DNA of 55,432 nt from Bacillus sp. (in: firmicutes) (GTDB taxonomy: Bacteria > Bacillota > Bacilli > Bacillales > Bacillaceae). The DNA is taken from contig JAPSLL010000009.1 in the NCBI GenBank assembly GCA_031180805.1, positions 23,004 to 78,435 on the forward strand. Direction: 5' to 3'. Position numbers and translations under genes: made by a program. The notes under the pieces are model-generated. The model did no database searches and was not told the DNA's origin. It saw only the letters and a list, made by a program, of their open reading frames with translations. This document shows positions 9,897-51,078 of this stretch, one piece after another (positions within the stretch are counted from its first letter, which is position 1; each line of letters starts with the position of its first letter).

Positions 9897-12800
9897 TTAA
9901 ATACTTTTTTCTCTTTTACGGATGATCATAAATGCTACACCAGCCGCAAAAATGATTATACCAATAAGCAAGAAAGTAAAGTTGCTTGTTGCCGTATTAG
10001 GTAAAATATTTAAACCATTTTGACCCTGCCCAATAGATGGACGCTCCTTCTCACCTGAGTTACCTTTAGGTGTCTTATCATCGTTGCCTCGGGTGTCTCC
10101 ATCTTTGTCTGGAGTGTTTCCACCGTTATTTGGATTTTCCACTCCATTGCCTGGCGGGTTATCCCCATTGCCTGGCTTCTCTTCATCTTTTCCTGGTGGA
10201 TTCTCCCCATTGCCTGGCTTCTCTTCACCATTTCCTGGTGGATTCTCTCCATTGCCCGGCTTTTCTTCACCATTTCCTGGTGGGTTCTCTCCATTGCCTG
10301 GCTTTTCTTCACCATTTCCTGGTGGGTTCTCTCCATTACCTGGCTTTTCTTCACCATTTCCTGGTGGATTCTCTCCATTGCCCGGCTTCTCTTCACCATC
10401 ACCTGGATTTGGTTGTTCATTTTTACCCTTTGTAAATGACCATATCGGTGATTCAGATGTGCCCGTATAGTCATCCTCTGCTATCACATACCAGGAATAG
10501 GTTTGTTTCTCAGTAAGTCCTTCCCATGTGACTTCAGCGGTTGAACCACTTGCAACATTTTCTTGTTTACCAATTACCTCATCTGTTTTTACATTGACAG
10601 TAAAATAATCAGTTGCTACTTGCTTTTTATCTACTTGTAAATCAAGGTTGATAATCATTTCATCTTTTCCAGGGAATTCTGCAGGATCATAGAAATTATA
10701 GTCATCTAAGTATGGTGAATATGTGTTGACGATAATTCGATTATTATCCTGGTCAAAATGTAATAGTTTCATATAGCCTTGACCGCCTTCAGGACCACCT
10801 TGGTAGTCGCCAAGCATTTGATAGACTTCACGGTCCGCTACGCCGTCACCATTATCATCAATTTCACTTACTAAAGTTTCAGAATCATGGTAGTGACCAC
10901 TAAGAACTGCGATTACGTTAGGATTTTTTTCTACAACTTCCTTATAAATCGTTTCACCAATTGGGCTTCTGTTCCCTGAAACTAGTAAATATTCATGGAA
11001 GTTTAAAATCGCCTTTCTGTCAGGGTATTCACTTAATACCTGATTCATCCATTGTAAATCCTCAGCTTCAACTCCCCAGCCCATGTAGACCATGATAAAG
11101 TCATTGCCATTTGCTGAGATGAGATCATAATGGCCTCGATTGTTTTTATATGAATCACCATAGTAGTCTTTTTCTGCAAATCTGTCTTCACCAAACCATT
11201 TATAGTATTCCGTATAATCATTTGATAATTGATCAACATCATGGTTACCAGCTAGAACGCCGTACGGAATATTATTATCATCAAGCACCTTCATATATTG
11301 GTCAGCATATTGCCATTGTTCTGGCTTATCAGATTCATCAACTAAATCTCCTGTGTGGAAGACATATTTGATTTTCATTTCTTCTTGCTTTTCGGCAATC
11401 CAATTTGTTTGCTTTTCAAAGATATATGGGTAGGATTCTGAATAATATTGTGTATCAGACATCCATACGAATGTGTAATCATACTCATCTGGACTGCTTG
11501 GAATTTCATCTTGAACGAGTACATTTATTTTTGAATCCTTTACATATTCATTTACCGTAACATTGCCCTTTAGTTCGAAATCTGCCTTACCAGCGATGTT
11601 ATACGTAATTAAATCCCATTTATTCGTTTGATGGTTCCATGCATACATTGAAACCTTTCTACCCTCTAGGGAATGACCAATCCATGAGAGTTCAATCTTA
11701 TCATTTTCATCAACTGACTCATCTACAGTTACATCAAAGCGATGGTATGGGAACTGTGTATCAGAATTTGTCGTTAAATATTCCCCATCCTTTTCCGCAA
11801 CTAACGAAATATCGTCTGATGTAAAGCCTTCCTCTCCATCTGGTACCATAACAGATGGTGGCTCAATATCATTGGCATTTTTGAAGGCTTTTACATGATT
11901 CGTATCAGCAACGTCATATTGATATCCTTTATAGAACGTTACATCTAACTCATCATTTGTTGGGTCTGTTACTTTTACCTTTAATTTCGCATTACCTTCT
12001 ACTGGTGTCGTTAGGCTATCTGCTGGTGAGATAAGCTCTGGTAGACTAGGATTTTCATTGTTTACAGAGAATTTGACAACTTCCTCTGTTACATTACCAA
12101 CTTTATCCTCTGCAACAACTGTTAACGTATGCTCCCCTGGCGTTAACTGAGATGATGCTGTTTCGTACGGAACAGTAATTTGCTCGTTATCAAGCAGCAC
12201 TTGAACAGTGTTCACGCCAGCAATTTCATCTGTAACATCTGTATCGATTGTGAATACACCTTTGTATTCCTTGCCTTCTTCAACAGTTGTCTTCACCTGT
12301 GGTGCTGTATTATCAACGAAGATTGTTGATGTAACTTCATTGTCACGATCTTGAGCTTTTACGATATGCTTTCCATCAGCAACCTTTGTCGTATCCCATG
12401 CATATGTTTTTGCATGTGTATGCTCCTCTGAAATCGTAAAGGTGAAATCCTCAAATGGGCGATATGTACCATCATCCCCCATATCATAAACCTTAGTTGG
12501 ATCACTCTTAGCAGGATCCCTTAGAACCGTACCATCCGCTAGAATTAAACGGACATTTCTTATCGTATAATCATCACGATTTTCTTCACTTTCCTCTAAC
12601 TGGAATGGTGAAGCTTTATTTCCAGCACGAACAGTTAAAGTGTTTTCACCTAGTTGTAAACGGTCAGCATCCACAGGAATCGTAAAGGTTTTCCAATGTG
12701 ATAGCCAATCCTTATCCATTAGATATAGAACATCCTCACCCATTGTTACAGCATTTTTAAAGTACGTATTTAAACCGTTCACTTCTAGTGCAAAATAAGC

Positions 12801-15800
12801 TTGCGTTTCTAATGACTTATAAGCACCCGCTTGTACTTCTGCTTCATCAATAAATAGCTTTACATCATCAGGAGTTTCTTCCTTTGACGTTCCTTTGATG
12901 ATTTTTGTACCAGATAATATATCATTGTCTTTTACATTCAATCGAATATCTGAATCATCATTATTGCTCTTAATGTCGATTTTATAAGTATCACTTTTTG
13001 TTTCATTTACCCCATCTGATACGACAAAATAATACTCAACAGATAGTTTAGCAATTAAATCAGAGGCGTAAATCATATTTTTATACAGTTGTGTTTCAGA
13101 ATCTAAGCTTAGTAATGTTTGAGTAAACTGTTCTTGGTCATTTGTTCGGTAATATAAAGTTACAGATTTAACACCAACATTATCATTTGCCTCAGCTGCA
13201 ATCTCAATATCTTCAGTTTCCTCAACTTCGGTTACTTTTGTTTTATTGACTACAGTTGGTGCTACTGAATCATCCTCAATATGAATTGGTTGTTTTGGAA
13301 CTTGGAACGATTCTACCGCACCTGGTGTTGCTGCTTCCGTTCCTGCGCTCACTTTTATAGATTGAGTCGAGCCATCTTCAGGATATTTATAGACTATCCC
13401 TTTATTTGGAACAGTATCATCAACGTTTACTACATCATTGTAATAGGAAACAGATATTTCCTCCTTCGTATTTGTAGCAACAACTAGACCTCTTGTACTG
13501 CCGTTAGCCATTCCGTCGCTATAAATTCGAACGATATCTTCATTTTCAACTAAATTCGTGCCATAGTTTGCGTTAAAATCAGCAACAGTTTGTTCTGTGT
13601 TTTGTGAGTTTATAATCCAAAAAACAAGCGTGTCTTGTGCCGGAATGACAACATCATCTGGAATTGAAGGCCACACAACATCACTTGCCGGATCTGTTCC
13701 ATAACGATATTGAATCTTGTAATCTTTAAAGCTTATATCCTTATCAGTGTTATTATAGATTTCAATAAATTCATAGCCATCTGCTGACCCGACATTTTCT
13801 GAATCTGGAACTACTTCTGTTACTAGGAATTTCGGAATTTTAGTATAATCTACTTCCTCTTTTTTCACTTCGACTACATATTCATCTGTTTTTGCAGAAT
13901 TTGTTCCGTCAGAAGCTTCGATATAGTAGGTAATTGATTCATCTACTTTTGTTCCCGGGATAACAGCTGAATAGCTTCCTGTATCCGTACTTACACTCAT
14001 TGAAAGAGCTGTAAATGAGTCATCACTTGCCTTTTTATAATGCAATGTAACAAACGGTACTGCCTTATCATCTGTTACAGCTGCTTCAACTACTATCGGA
14101 GCGTACGCCTCACCTGTTTTAATTGGTGTATGAGTAATAACAGGTGCTTCTACGTCTTTAGGTTGTTCATCAATTTCAATCGGCTTTGTCGGTACTTGTA
14201 CGGAATCAATTACACCTGGTGTTGGTGGCGAAAGGACTCGGTATTTAACCATTTCTGTCCCTTCTGTTGAAAATAAATAATGAATATCTGCTCCAGTATT
14301 ATCATTTTCATTACCTAAATAAGCTGCAGAGACTAGCTCTGTTCCATTGTTATCTTTAATAACGATTGCGCGGTTTCCACCGTTCGCGAAGCCTGGAAAA
14401 GCTGTATCTGTAAATTCCATTACTTGTTCAGCTGAAAGGTTTGTACCAAAGTTTTCATTAAATTGCTGTAACGTGCGATTCCCGTTATTAAACCAAAATA
14501 CAAGGGTTTCTTGTGGCTCAATCGTAGTCGCAGGCACTTGGAAGGCAACCTCTCTACCAGTATCCGTATATTTGTATACAAATGAATAATTTGTTAATGC
14601 TAATGGCTGATTTGTATTATTATAGAGTTCAAAAAATTCATAGTAGTCTGTTCCTCCACCGGCAGAGTTCGGTGAAAGCTCAGTAATTAATAATGGTTGA
14701 TTACTATATGTTTCCTGTGGTGTTTCGATTTTGACAATGTACTCATCCGTTTTAGAGACATTCGTACCATCTGATGCTTCAATAAAGTACACAACATTTC
14801 CTTTGACTTCTGTTCCTGGTATTTCAACAGTAAAGGTTGACTCATTTTCAGTGCTTTTAGTCATTGGAATTTGTATAAACTCATTTTCACCCTCACCCTT
14901 AATATGAAGGGTTACATTATGAACGAATTGATTATCAGTTACGTTAGCCTCAATCTTTAACGGTTGTAACGCCTTACCTTCTGCTATAGCGTTATGTGAA
15001 ATAACTGGTGACTCTGTATCAGCAGGTATTTCAGGTAGCTCGACAGTCTTTGCCGGCACTTGAGTGTTTTCAATTGTCCCTGGACTTGGAGCTGCTAAAA
15101 CTTGAAGCTTTTCCATTTCCGTTTTAGCTGGAGCATATTTATATTGAACGACAAGCCCGGTATTATCTGTTTCATTAGGTAAATAGGTTGCAGCTGTTAT
15201 CTCATTTCCATCCTTATCTTTAATAACTGCTGCGCGGTTTCCACCGTTGGCAAACCCCGGGAATACATCTTTGTATTCGACAACCTGCTCGCTTGTTAAT
15301 TGTGTTCCAAAATGATTGTTAAAGTCCTCTAGTGAAAGTCCCGCATTATTAAACCAAAATACAAGTGTTTCCTGTGGGTCAATTGTTGTTGCAGGTACTT
15401 GGAATACCTTTTCTTCACCAGAATCTGTATAACGGTATATAAATGTATAATTTGCTAGAGATAAGGGCTGATTTGTATTATTGTACACTTCAAAGTACTC
15501 AAAGTTATCAGTGCCTTTACTATTTGGGGAAATTTCTGTTATTAAGAGATGAGCATTTTTGTTAAAGTCTTCAGCTTCTTCATTTATAACCACTTCTTGC
15601 TGTACTTCATTACTTGAGGATTCTGTTGTTTCTTGAGTAGATGAGTCATTTTTCGGATCTTGTTCAGCCGATTGTTGGTCTTCTTGAGTTGAATCTACCG
15701 GCTGCTCAGGTTCTACTACTTCTTGCATTGGCTGCTCTATTACTTCTGCCGGTTGTTCTTCTTGTGTTGGTTGCTCAACCTCTTGTGATGGCTGTTCTGC

Positions 15801-16055
15801 TTGTTGTTCATTTGGGTCACCCGCTGCTGGTTGTGTACCAACAGCTTCTTCCTCCACATTTCCCTCTTGCACTGTATTAGCGCTTTCAGTTTGTCCGCTC
15901 ATTGTTGTTGAAGGAGTTGTTGCTTCTCCACTAATTTCCTCTGCATAAATTATCTTTGTAGGAATAAATGATAAAAAGTTCGAAAGGATAATTGTTACCA
16001 TACAAACTAGGATAAACAATCTTTTACTCTGACGTCTTACTCCATGTTTAAACAT
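9897..16055 (-). CDS. Giant wall-anchored metallophosphoesterase with lamin-tail domains
   Basis: 2052-residue secreted surface protein. Order: signal peptide (about 1-38), Glu/Gln/Pro-rich segment (45-165), three lamin-tail-like domains starting near 169, 455 and 740 (each (L/V)(I/V)TE(I/L/V)xP(N/D)S...F(E/F/I)(V/L/I)YNNT), each followed by an Ig-like module, a region of unassigned beta domains (about 1020-1515), a calcineurin-like phosphoesterase (about 1520-1760) with SDTQ, HTGDLVDE, AGNHDV, NFHEYL and SGHYHDSE metal ligands, Gly/Pro/Asn/Glu-rich 14-residue repeats (about 1885-1973), and an LPNTA sorting signal (2018-2022) with membrane helix and basic tail. B. subtilis YvnB has related modules. 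LPNTA is the motif read by class D-type sortases (e.g. B. anthracis SrtC). Strong AAGGAGGT site; upstream PhoP-box array. Substrate unknown. Confidence 0.9.
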   Translation of the reverse strand: MFKHGVRRQSKRLFILVCMVTIILSNFLSFIPTKIIYAEEISGEATTPSTTMSGQTESANTVQEGNVEEEAVGTQPAAGDPNEQQAEQPSQEVEQPTQEEQPAEVIEQPMQEVVEPEQPVDSTQEDQQSAEQDPKNDSSTQETTESSSNEVQQEVVINEEAEDFNKNAHLLITEISPNSKGTDNFEYFEVYNNTNQPLSLANYTFIYRYTDSGEEKVFQVPATTIDPQETLVFWFNNAGLSLEDFNNHFGTQLTSEQVVEYKDVFPGFANGGNRAAVIKDKDGNEITAATYLPNETDNTGLVVQYKYAPAKTEMEKLQVLAAPSPGTIENTQVPAKTVELPEIPADTESPVISHNAIAEGKALQPLKIEANVTDNQFVHNVTLHIKGEGENEFIQIPMTKSTENESTFTVEIPGTEVKGNVVYFIEASDGTNVSKTDEYIVKIETPQETYSNQPLLITELSPNSAGGGTDYYEFFELYNNTNQPLALTNYSFVYKYTDTGREVAFQVPATTIEPQETLVFWFNNGNRTLQQFNENFGTNLSAEQVMEFTDTAFPGFANGGNRAIVIKDNNGTELVSAAYLGNENDNTGADIHYLFSTEGTEMVKYRVLSPPTPGVIDSVQVPTKPIEIDEQPKDVEAPVITHTPIKTGEAYAPIVVEAAVTDDKAVPFVTLHYKKASDDSFTALSMSVSTDTGSYSAVIPGTKVDESITYYIEASDGTNSAKTDEYVVEVKKEEVDYTKIPKFLVTEVVPDSENVGSADGYEFIEIYNNTDKDISFKDYKIQYRYGTDPASDVVWPSIPDDVVIPAQDTLVFWIINSQNTEQTVADFNANYGTNLVENEDIVRIYSDGMANGSTRGLVVATNTKEEISVSYYNDVVNVDDTVPNKGIVYKYPEDGSTQSIKVSAGTEAATPGAVESFQVPKQPIHIEDDSVAPTVVNKTKVTEVEETEDIEIAAEANDNVGVKSVTLYYRTNDQEQFTQTLLSLDSETQLYKNMIYASDLIAKLSVEYYFVVSDGVNETKSDTYKIDIKSNNDDSDIRLNVKDNDILSGTKIIKGTSKEETPDDVKLFIDEAEVQAGAYKSLETQAYFALEVNGLNTYFKNAVTMGEDVLYLMDKDWLSHWKTFTIPVDADRLQLGENTLTVRAGNKASPFQLEESEENRDDYTIRNVRLILADGTVLRDPAKSDPTKVYDMGDDGTYRPFEDFTFTISEEHTHAKTYAWDTTKVADGKHIVKAQDRDNEVTSTIFVDNTAPQVKTTVEEGKEYKGVFTIDTDVTDEIAGVNTVQVLLDNEQITVPYETASSQLTPGEHTLTVVAEDKVGNVTEEVVKFSVNNENPSLPELISPADSLTTPVEGNAKLKVKVTDPTNDELDVTFYKGYQYDVADTNHVKAFKNANDIEPPSVMVPDGEEGFTSDDISLVAEKDGEYLTTNSDTQFPYHRFDVTVDESVDENDKIELSWIGHSLEGRKVSMYAWNHQTNKWDLITYNIAGKADFELKGNVTVNEYVKDSKINVLVQDEIPSSPDEYDYTFVWMSDTQYYSESYPYIFEKQTNWIAEKQEEMKIKYVFHTGDLVDESDKPEQWQYADQYMKVLDDNNIPYGVLAGNHDVDQLSNDYTEYYKWFGEDRFAEKDYYGDSYKNNRGHYDLISANGNDFIMVYMGWGVEAEDLQWMNQVLSEYPDRKAILNFHEYLLVSGNRSPIGETIYKEVVEKNPNVIAVLSGHYHDSETLVSEIDDNGDGVADREVYQMLGDYQGGPEGGQGYMKLLHFDQDNNRIIVNTYSPYLDDYNFYDPAEFPGKDEMIINLDLQVDKKQVATDYFTVNVKTDEVIGKQENVASGSTAEVTWEGLTEKQTYSWYVIAEDDYTGTSESPIWSFTKGKNEQPNPGDGEEKPGNGENPPGNGEEKPGNGENPPGNGEEKPGNGENPPGNGEEKPGNGENPPGNGEEKPGNGENPPGKDEEKPGNGDNPPGNGVENPNNGGNTPDKDGDTRGNDDKTPKGNSGEKERPSIGQGQNGLNILPNTATSNFTFLLIGIIIFAAGVAFMIIRKREKSI
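10135..10400 (-). repeat. 42-bp in-frame tandem repeats coding the wall-spanning linker
   Basis: About six near-identical 42-bp units encode GEEKPGNGENPPGN; the last units toward the C-terminus degenerate to DEEKPGNGDNPPGN and GVENPNNGGN. The repeats create spurious long open frames on both strands. Copy number is probably prone to slippage. Confidence 0.9.
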
Positions 16056-49684: not shown

Positions 49685-49779
49685 GGGGAAGGTAGCTGAT
49701 AATTTCTGTCCTGCAATTATTTAGAAAATAGATATTATACCGATATAAGGTATAGAGTATTGAATAACGGAGGGATAAC

Positions 49780-51078
49780 ATGGCTTTATTTAGCAAAAAG
49801 ACAAGCTCACACCAATCACTGGTAGAACTCGCTGAACAACAACAGGATGTTTCAATTAACAGCAATGGTCACTCTGAATTAGAACAACAATTAGAACTTC
49901 TCAACATTACACTTCAGGATTTAGCTGTGGCAAAGGCATTAAAACCGATAATCGAAGAAAAGTTCGATAAAGTATACGATGCTTTATATAACCATCCTTT
50001 TGATGGAATTAGAAAAATCGTTGATATGAAATCACTAGGAATTGAAAAAAGCGGTTCAAAACAATATATCATTGACTTCTTTTCTGGAGTTATTAGTGCC
50101 GATTTTATGGAAAAGAGAAATAATTTAGCCAGATACTACTTAGCAATTGGTGTTGAAATGAAATGGTATTTATGTACAAACCAAATTTTAACGGAAGCTG
50201 TTATCGAAATTGTTGGTGAAGCCTATAAAACGGATCCCGAAAGCTTAACTTTAGCCTATCGAGTCGTTTCTAAAATCTTTAGTCTTGAAGCACAAATATG
50301 TTTAGCTGCCCTGCAAAGGCTGCAAAATCAACTACTTTTAGACAAAGAGGATGAAGCGAAGCAAAATGTGAAAAAGACAATTGGCGATATTACTGAGGAT
50401 TTAGCCGCAATGTCAGAAGAAACAGGGGCAACAGTTGAAGATGTTTTAAACAAGTCGGAGAAAATTAAAGAAAACATTGAAGAAGGTCTGCAATCCGCAA
50501 TTTCAACTGAAGAGCGTTCACTTATAGGAAAGGAACAGCTAGACGCTGTTATCGTCCAAACGACCTCATTAAAGGAAAGTGTAAATCATATAAAAAGCAG
50601 CATATCTTCATTAGCCTCTACGTCAAAGGAAATAGGGGAAATTGTTGCGGTCATTACATCAATTGCTGAGCAAACAAATCTTTTAGCCTTAAATGCTGCC
50701 ATTGAAGCTGCCCGGGCAGGTGAGCAAGGTAAAGGATTCTCGGTTGTTGCAGCAGAGGTTAGAAAACTAGCAGAACAAACAAAGGATTCTTCAAATAATA
50801 TTACAGATTTAGTACGTTCAACCATTACTCAAATTGAAGGTGTTGTTGAGCAAATAAACGATGTAGATTCAAAGGCAATTCATACAAACCAACATGTGAA
50901 CGACACGCTAACTAGCTTTGAGGAAATCCTAACAGTTAGTAACTCAAACAAAAAACAAAGTGAACGGAATAATTTAGACATTCAAAGCTTTACACATCTA
51001 TTAACGGATATTCGAGAATCATCCTTAAAGCTTTCAACATTAGCTGATGAACTTAATCAAACAATCCAAAATTTTTAA
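49780..51078 (+). CDS. Globin-coupled chemoreceptor (HemAT-like) lacking the proximal heme His
   Basis: 432 residues. Sensor-globin domain (about 30-190) and cytoplasmic methyl-accepting signalling domain (about 230-432) with the hairpin tip [49 protein letters not shown]. No transmembrane segments, as in HemAT. Aligned by hand with B. subtilis HemAT as I remember it (RNRIASIHLRIGLLPKWYM), this protein reads [19 protein letters not shown]: the proximal heme-ligand His is Tyr120 here, while the distal Tyr70 is kept. There is no other His nearby. So oxygen sensing through normally ligated heme is doubtful; a heme-free sensor role is possible. Confidence 0.88.

Follow-up and report, generated by a model that had tools for sequence, protein, structure and literature searches.

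A clade of HemAT-like chemoreceptors with tyrosine in place of the proximal heme histidine that may have given up heme

HemAT of Bacillus subtilis (HemAT-Bs; PDB ID: 1or4) is a globin-coupled aerotaxis receptor. Its His123, Tyr70, Thr95 (which bonds O2) and His86 (propionate) are tied to heme or oxygen (PMC13401364, PMC12805357), and PMC12805357 carries the proposal that heme sensors signal via helices G and H to the bundle of the methyl-accepting chemotaxis protein (MCP) domain. PMC7542364 describes binding of ethanol by the HemAT-Bs sensor without use of the heme. Globin sensors lacking heme are known as well: RsbR, a stressosome protein, lost both His F8 and the haem (PMC4476040), and a Bacillus non-haem globin was crystallised with a fatty acid (PMC4976288). 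In a 2006 globin survey, alignments had to show a His at F8 (PMC1457004), so that surveys built in this way would miss His-less globins. Here, we describe such a His-less globin, fused to an MCP signalling domain, in a 55,432-nucleotide stretch of Bacillus sp. (assembly GCA_031180805.1, contig JAPSLL010000009.1, positions 23,004 to 78,435), hereafter the window.

The gene encodes 432 residues with the architecture of HemAT, i.e., an N-terminal globin and a C-terminal MCP signalling domain, and carries Tyr120 where HemAT has its proximal His. A phmmer search against PDB chains matched residues 20-175 with the HemAT-Bs sensor (1or4, E 7.1e-19) and placed Tyr120 opposite His123; the codons and the ungapped alignment at this site bear out the initial annotation, which had read a proximal Tyr from the letters. 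Its further statement that the alignment to HemAT is gapless stands near His123/Tyr120 and fails for the whole domain, which is three residues shorter between helices B and E, a gap that different aligners place differently. No substitute His was found nearby, as had been claimed: the first 187 residues contain H11, H31 and H72 only, and in the alignment no His column is common to more than four of the eight genes of this kind (Tyr-types), leaving the sensor domain without a conserved His. Tyr70 lies opposite the distal Tyr70 of HemAT and is thus intact as stated. In the Pfam scan, PF11563 (Protoglobin, 79 bits against a cut-off of 25) and MCPsignal both exceeded their curated cut-offs, and three relatives scored 95.2, 59.8 and 93.5 bits for Protoglobin, likewise above cut-off. 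The features are as follows.

49780..51078, + strand: Tyr-type globin chemoreceptor gene, 432 aa; open reading frame with PF11563 and PF00015 matches.
49870..50316, + strand: sensor globin domain, residues 31-179.
50521..50943, + strand: MCP signalling domain, residues 248-388; PF00015, 122.6 bits.
50137..50139, + strand: Tyr120, codon TAC, opposite HemAT-Bs proximal His123; alignment ungapped; Tyr in 8/8 clade members.
50134..50136, + strand: Tyr119, codon TAC, adjoining Tyr120; Tyr in 6/8 clade members.
49987..49989, + strand: Tyr70, opposite HemAT distal Tyr70; Tyr in 6/8 clade members, Leu in 2.
49975..49977, + strand: Tyr66 (HemAT V66); Tyr in 8/8 clade members and in 0/57 compared His-type rows.
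50023..50046, + strand: remodelled distal segment, residues 82-89, including Gly87 and Glu89 (HemAT L92), from predicted structure and alignment.
50053..50067, + strand: Gly92, Ser93 and Tyr96 (HemAT T95, L96 and H99), from alignments.
49739..49746, + strand: SigD-like -10 element ACCGATAT; CCGATA lies upstream in 7/8 clade genes.
49769..49774, + strand: ribosome-binding site GGAGGG, by sequence inspection.

Among the matches listed, there are eight Tyr-type genes in seven genomes of five families. Three of the 21 genomes of the genus carry one: the host, which is most likely a Metabacillus, and two others, Metabacillus niabensis Q2603 (G010) and M. malikii DSM 29005 (G009), whose genes match the sensor query with identities of 97% and 61%; a further contig scan returned only these two named Metabacillus. 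Across the 80 genomes of the family, no further Tyr-type appeared among the 30 loci examined, the best identity below the third match being 35%. The order (397 genomes) added four genomes, i.e., G202 (two genes), G305, G176 and G082, and no additional ones were seen among the matches listed for the class (398 genomes) and the phylum (348), nor in the families of G202 (17 genomes), G305 (36) and G082 (3). Please note that the genome sets from genus to phylum overlap; that for the family, the order, the class and the set of 577-593-aa proteins described below we examined the best-scoring loci plus the second G202 gene; and that the scans of the phylum and of the G305 and G082 families ran at a cut-off of 1e-36: Tyr-types clear it easily, other His-less types would not. 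Over 133 distinct globin genes, the proximal residue is His in 121 (at least one of them, L131, a flavohemoglobin by sequence); the other twelve comprise eight with Tyr, two with Gln, one with Lys and one with Ser.

In a tree of 100 sensor domains, the eight Tyr-types share one branch (support 100/100, length 1.57) placed among His-type HemATs; this tree was built without RsbR and after two L060 rows had been dropped, its bootstrap had not settled and some of its branches are long. Within the clade, six members that retain the distal Tyr70 form one subclade, and the two that have Leu instead (L082, L086) form another. Other departures from the classical pocket were seen beside it. In a second protoglobin set of 577-593 aa, the proximal site is Gln in L145 (identical to L126; from G176) and in L146 (G143) and Lys in L147 (G204), and ten genes of 580-599 aa found alongside (L148-L157) keep the His. 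The 446-aa protoglobin L165 of G434 has proximal Ser, with Val at the distal Tyr70 and Thr95 sites. The genus of the window also holds a third group of HemAT-like genes (L025-L028), which retain the His and carry Leu, Val and Tyr at the Tyr70, Thr95 and His99 sites, respectively.

The changes in the Tyr clade extend beyond the proximal residue. We aligned 65 of 101 domains (8/8 Tyr-types and 57/93 others, hand-picked for spread, with the L025-L028 group left out), in which 33 HemAT columns are at least 90% conserved among the 57 His-type rows: 12 of these are kept in at least seven Tyr-types, 10 are mixed, and 11 are replaced in all eight (F69, L79, I82, L92, T95, L96, H99, H123, L128, F137 and Q173). 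Checking all 133 genes narrows the clade-specific changes to L92, L96, Tyr at 66 and H123. HemAT L92 is Leu in 119/121 His-types and Glu, Asp, Asn or Ser in every Tyr-type; L96 is non-polar in 121/121 His-types and Ser or Cys in every Tyr-type; Tyr at 66, invariant in the clade, falls outside the five commonest His-type residues, which cover 119/121. The L128 change is not clade-specific (Val in 6/121 His-types), and even His86 is His in just 65/121. At HemAT T95, all eight Tyr-types carry Gly, Glu or Met and so lack the hydrogen-bond donor (Thr/Ser). In the predicted structure the globin fold is kept, as would be expected, together with the loss of the proximal His, of a non-heme globin sensor such as RsbR. 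Helix E of the model begins four residues, i.e., one turn, later than in the control model of the His-type paralogue; residues 82-89 are mostly non-helical where that paralogue begins its helix E (predicted local distance difference test score, pLDDT, of 74 for residues 81-90).

We favor, with moderate confidence, the explanation that these genes form a subfamily of soluble HemAT-like chemoreceptors that dispensed with heme and put the pocket to use for a different ligand. Instead of the proximal His and two helix E residues that are non-polar elsewhere, the clade carries a conserved polar set of its own, Tyr120, Ser/Cys93 and Asp/Glu/Asn/Ser89, with Tyr66 and Tyr96. The emptied pocket would bind a small non-heme ligand; by analogy, the likeliest candidates are small amphipathic compounds, for instance a short-chain alcohol or a fatty acid. 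Binding might shift the G/H-helix dimer interface and thereby the MCP bundle controlling CheA, the route suggested for globin sensors that carry heme. The closest relatives also lack the heme His, and the receptor therefore probably senses something other than oxygen. It may work beside an oxygen-sensing HemAT: a His-type HemAT co-occurs with the Tyr-type in 5/7 genomes, including the host (4.58 Mb, 119 contigs), whose second protoglobin chemoreceptor, L001, has a normal proximal His; in G202 and G082 (Tyr-types L082, L083 and L086), a Protoglobin profile search gave no His-type HemAT. All seven genomes contain a CheA dimerisation domain. A more specific version, which we hold only tentatively, is that the heme-independent (ethanol) sensing reported for HemAT became the sole function, so that a globin would steer swimming without heme through a polar pocket rebuilt for a new chemical signal, beside a separate oxygen-sensing HemAT in most hosts.

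Several observations weigh against a heme-free pocket. Thr/Ser95 is missing in 14/121 His-types too, Tyr occurs at H99 in 31/121 and at F137 in 26/121, and Leu at Y70 in 12/121, so these positions can change with the His retained; L79 and I82, replaced in the 65-domain alignment, show conservative Ile/Val in the 133-gene one, depending on where the three-residue gap is placed. In addition, the two members that lost Tyr70 still carry Tyr120, which thus does not vary in the clade, though a heme-free pocket would need no fixed axial residue; such invariance is what Tyr ligation would predict. For this reason the main rival is a retained heme whose iron is bound by the Tyr120 phenolate; it would be ferric, would not bind O2 and could report redox state, nitric oxide or free heme. 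Tyr-ligated hemes exist in catalase, HasA and hemoglobin M Iwate, the axial Tyr is conserved in 8/8 members as expected of such a heme, the modeled fold and, in six members, the distal Tyr70 are kept, and positions 95 and 99 vary in some His-types as well. In 8/8 members, however, positions 92 and 96 carry polar or acidic residues, and in the model helix E starts late; a swap of axial ligand requires neither change, and both would be expected to make heme bind less well, which favors the heme-free branch. The 133-gene check made us slightly less confident of the latter and slightly more receptive to Tyr ligation, which we still consider unlikely. The initial suggestion of a heme-free or Tyr-ligated globin, hence of a non-oxygen signal, is thus supported, with the change of signal following by inference.

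A domain without any ligand, drifting after heme loss as a scaffold or a constitutively signalling receptor, would fit a clade this rare and patchy. We regard it as improbable, as the Tyr-type genes compared are under purifying selection: by the Nei-Gojobori method, the ratio of nonsynonymous to synonymous substitution (dN/dS) for the whole gene is 0.06 when the window gene is compared with that of M. niabensis, 0.10 for the comparison with M. malikii (where dS is saturated) and 0.10-0.13 between other clade members, and for the globin domain 0.07-0.19 in five pairs, one further pair giving no ratio; these values cover six of the eight genes, the two with Leu70 being left out. The His paralogues of the window genome and M. 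niabensis give 0.17. Also against drift, 26 columns are invariant among the eight members at identities down to 27%, and CCGATA, which we take to be the core of the SigD -10, lies within 120 nucleotides upstream of 7/8 clade genes (missing: L085), while 5000 single-base shuffles reached 3/8 at most; the window and M. niabensis entries in this count are nearly identical. The same motif precedes the His paralogues in the three genus genomes. A sequencing error or decaying gene has a negligible chance and was rejected, in agreement with the initial annotation: close homologues show Tyr rather than His, eight genes in seven genomes agree, no stop interrupts the matches, and all four Tyr-type genes scanned have an intact signalling domain. 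Elsewhere, the window encodes a 2052-aa protein (9900-16055, - strand) that combines a calcineurin-like phosphoesterase with three stretches of lamin-tail domain; a match to a bacterial Ig family attains the cut-off only when the whole protein is scanned.

If HemAT has a natural subfamily lacking the heme ligands, heme-independent sensing could be studied apart from oxygen. To annotate the genes as aerotaxis receptors on domain content alone would probably be wrong. The listings of one open-access library, which leaves out most subscription papers, showed no His-less HemAT or non-heme globin chemoreceptor. The four genes with proximal Gln (L145, L146), Lys (L147) or Ser (L165) resemble the Tyr clade as globin-query matches without the proximal His; they are other subfamilies by sequence, with Leu, Phe or Val at 92, and are known from alignment alone. 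The sporulation inhibitors pXO1-118 and pXO2-61 (3pmd and 3pmc) are stand-alone sensor domains, and the model of the window protein matches both at 8% identity. RsbR delivers its output through STAS and the stressosome, whereas the window protein ends in MCPsignal with no STAS family among its seven Pfam matches, and the Tyr clade falls among HemAT globins in our tree. Compared with HemAT-Bs, the window protein replaces His123, Leu92, Thr95, Leu96 and His99, has fewer residues between helices B and E, and is predicted to start helix E later. Non-heme globin sensors, as in stressosomes, and HemAT are both known kinds; it is their combination that appears to be new.
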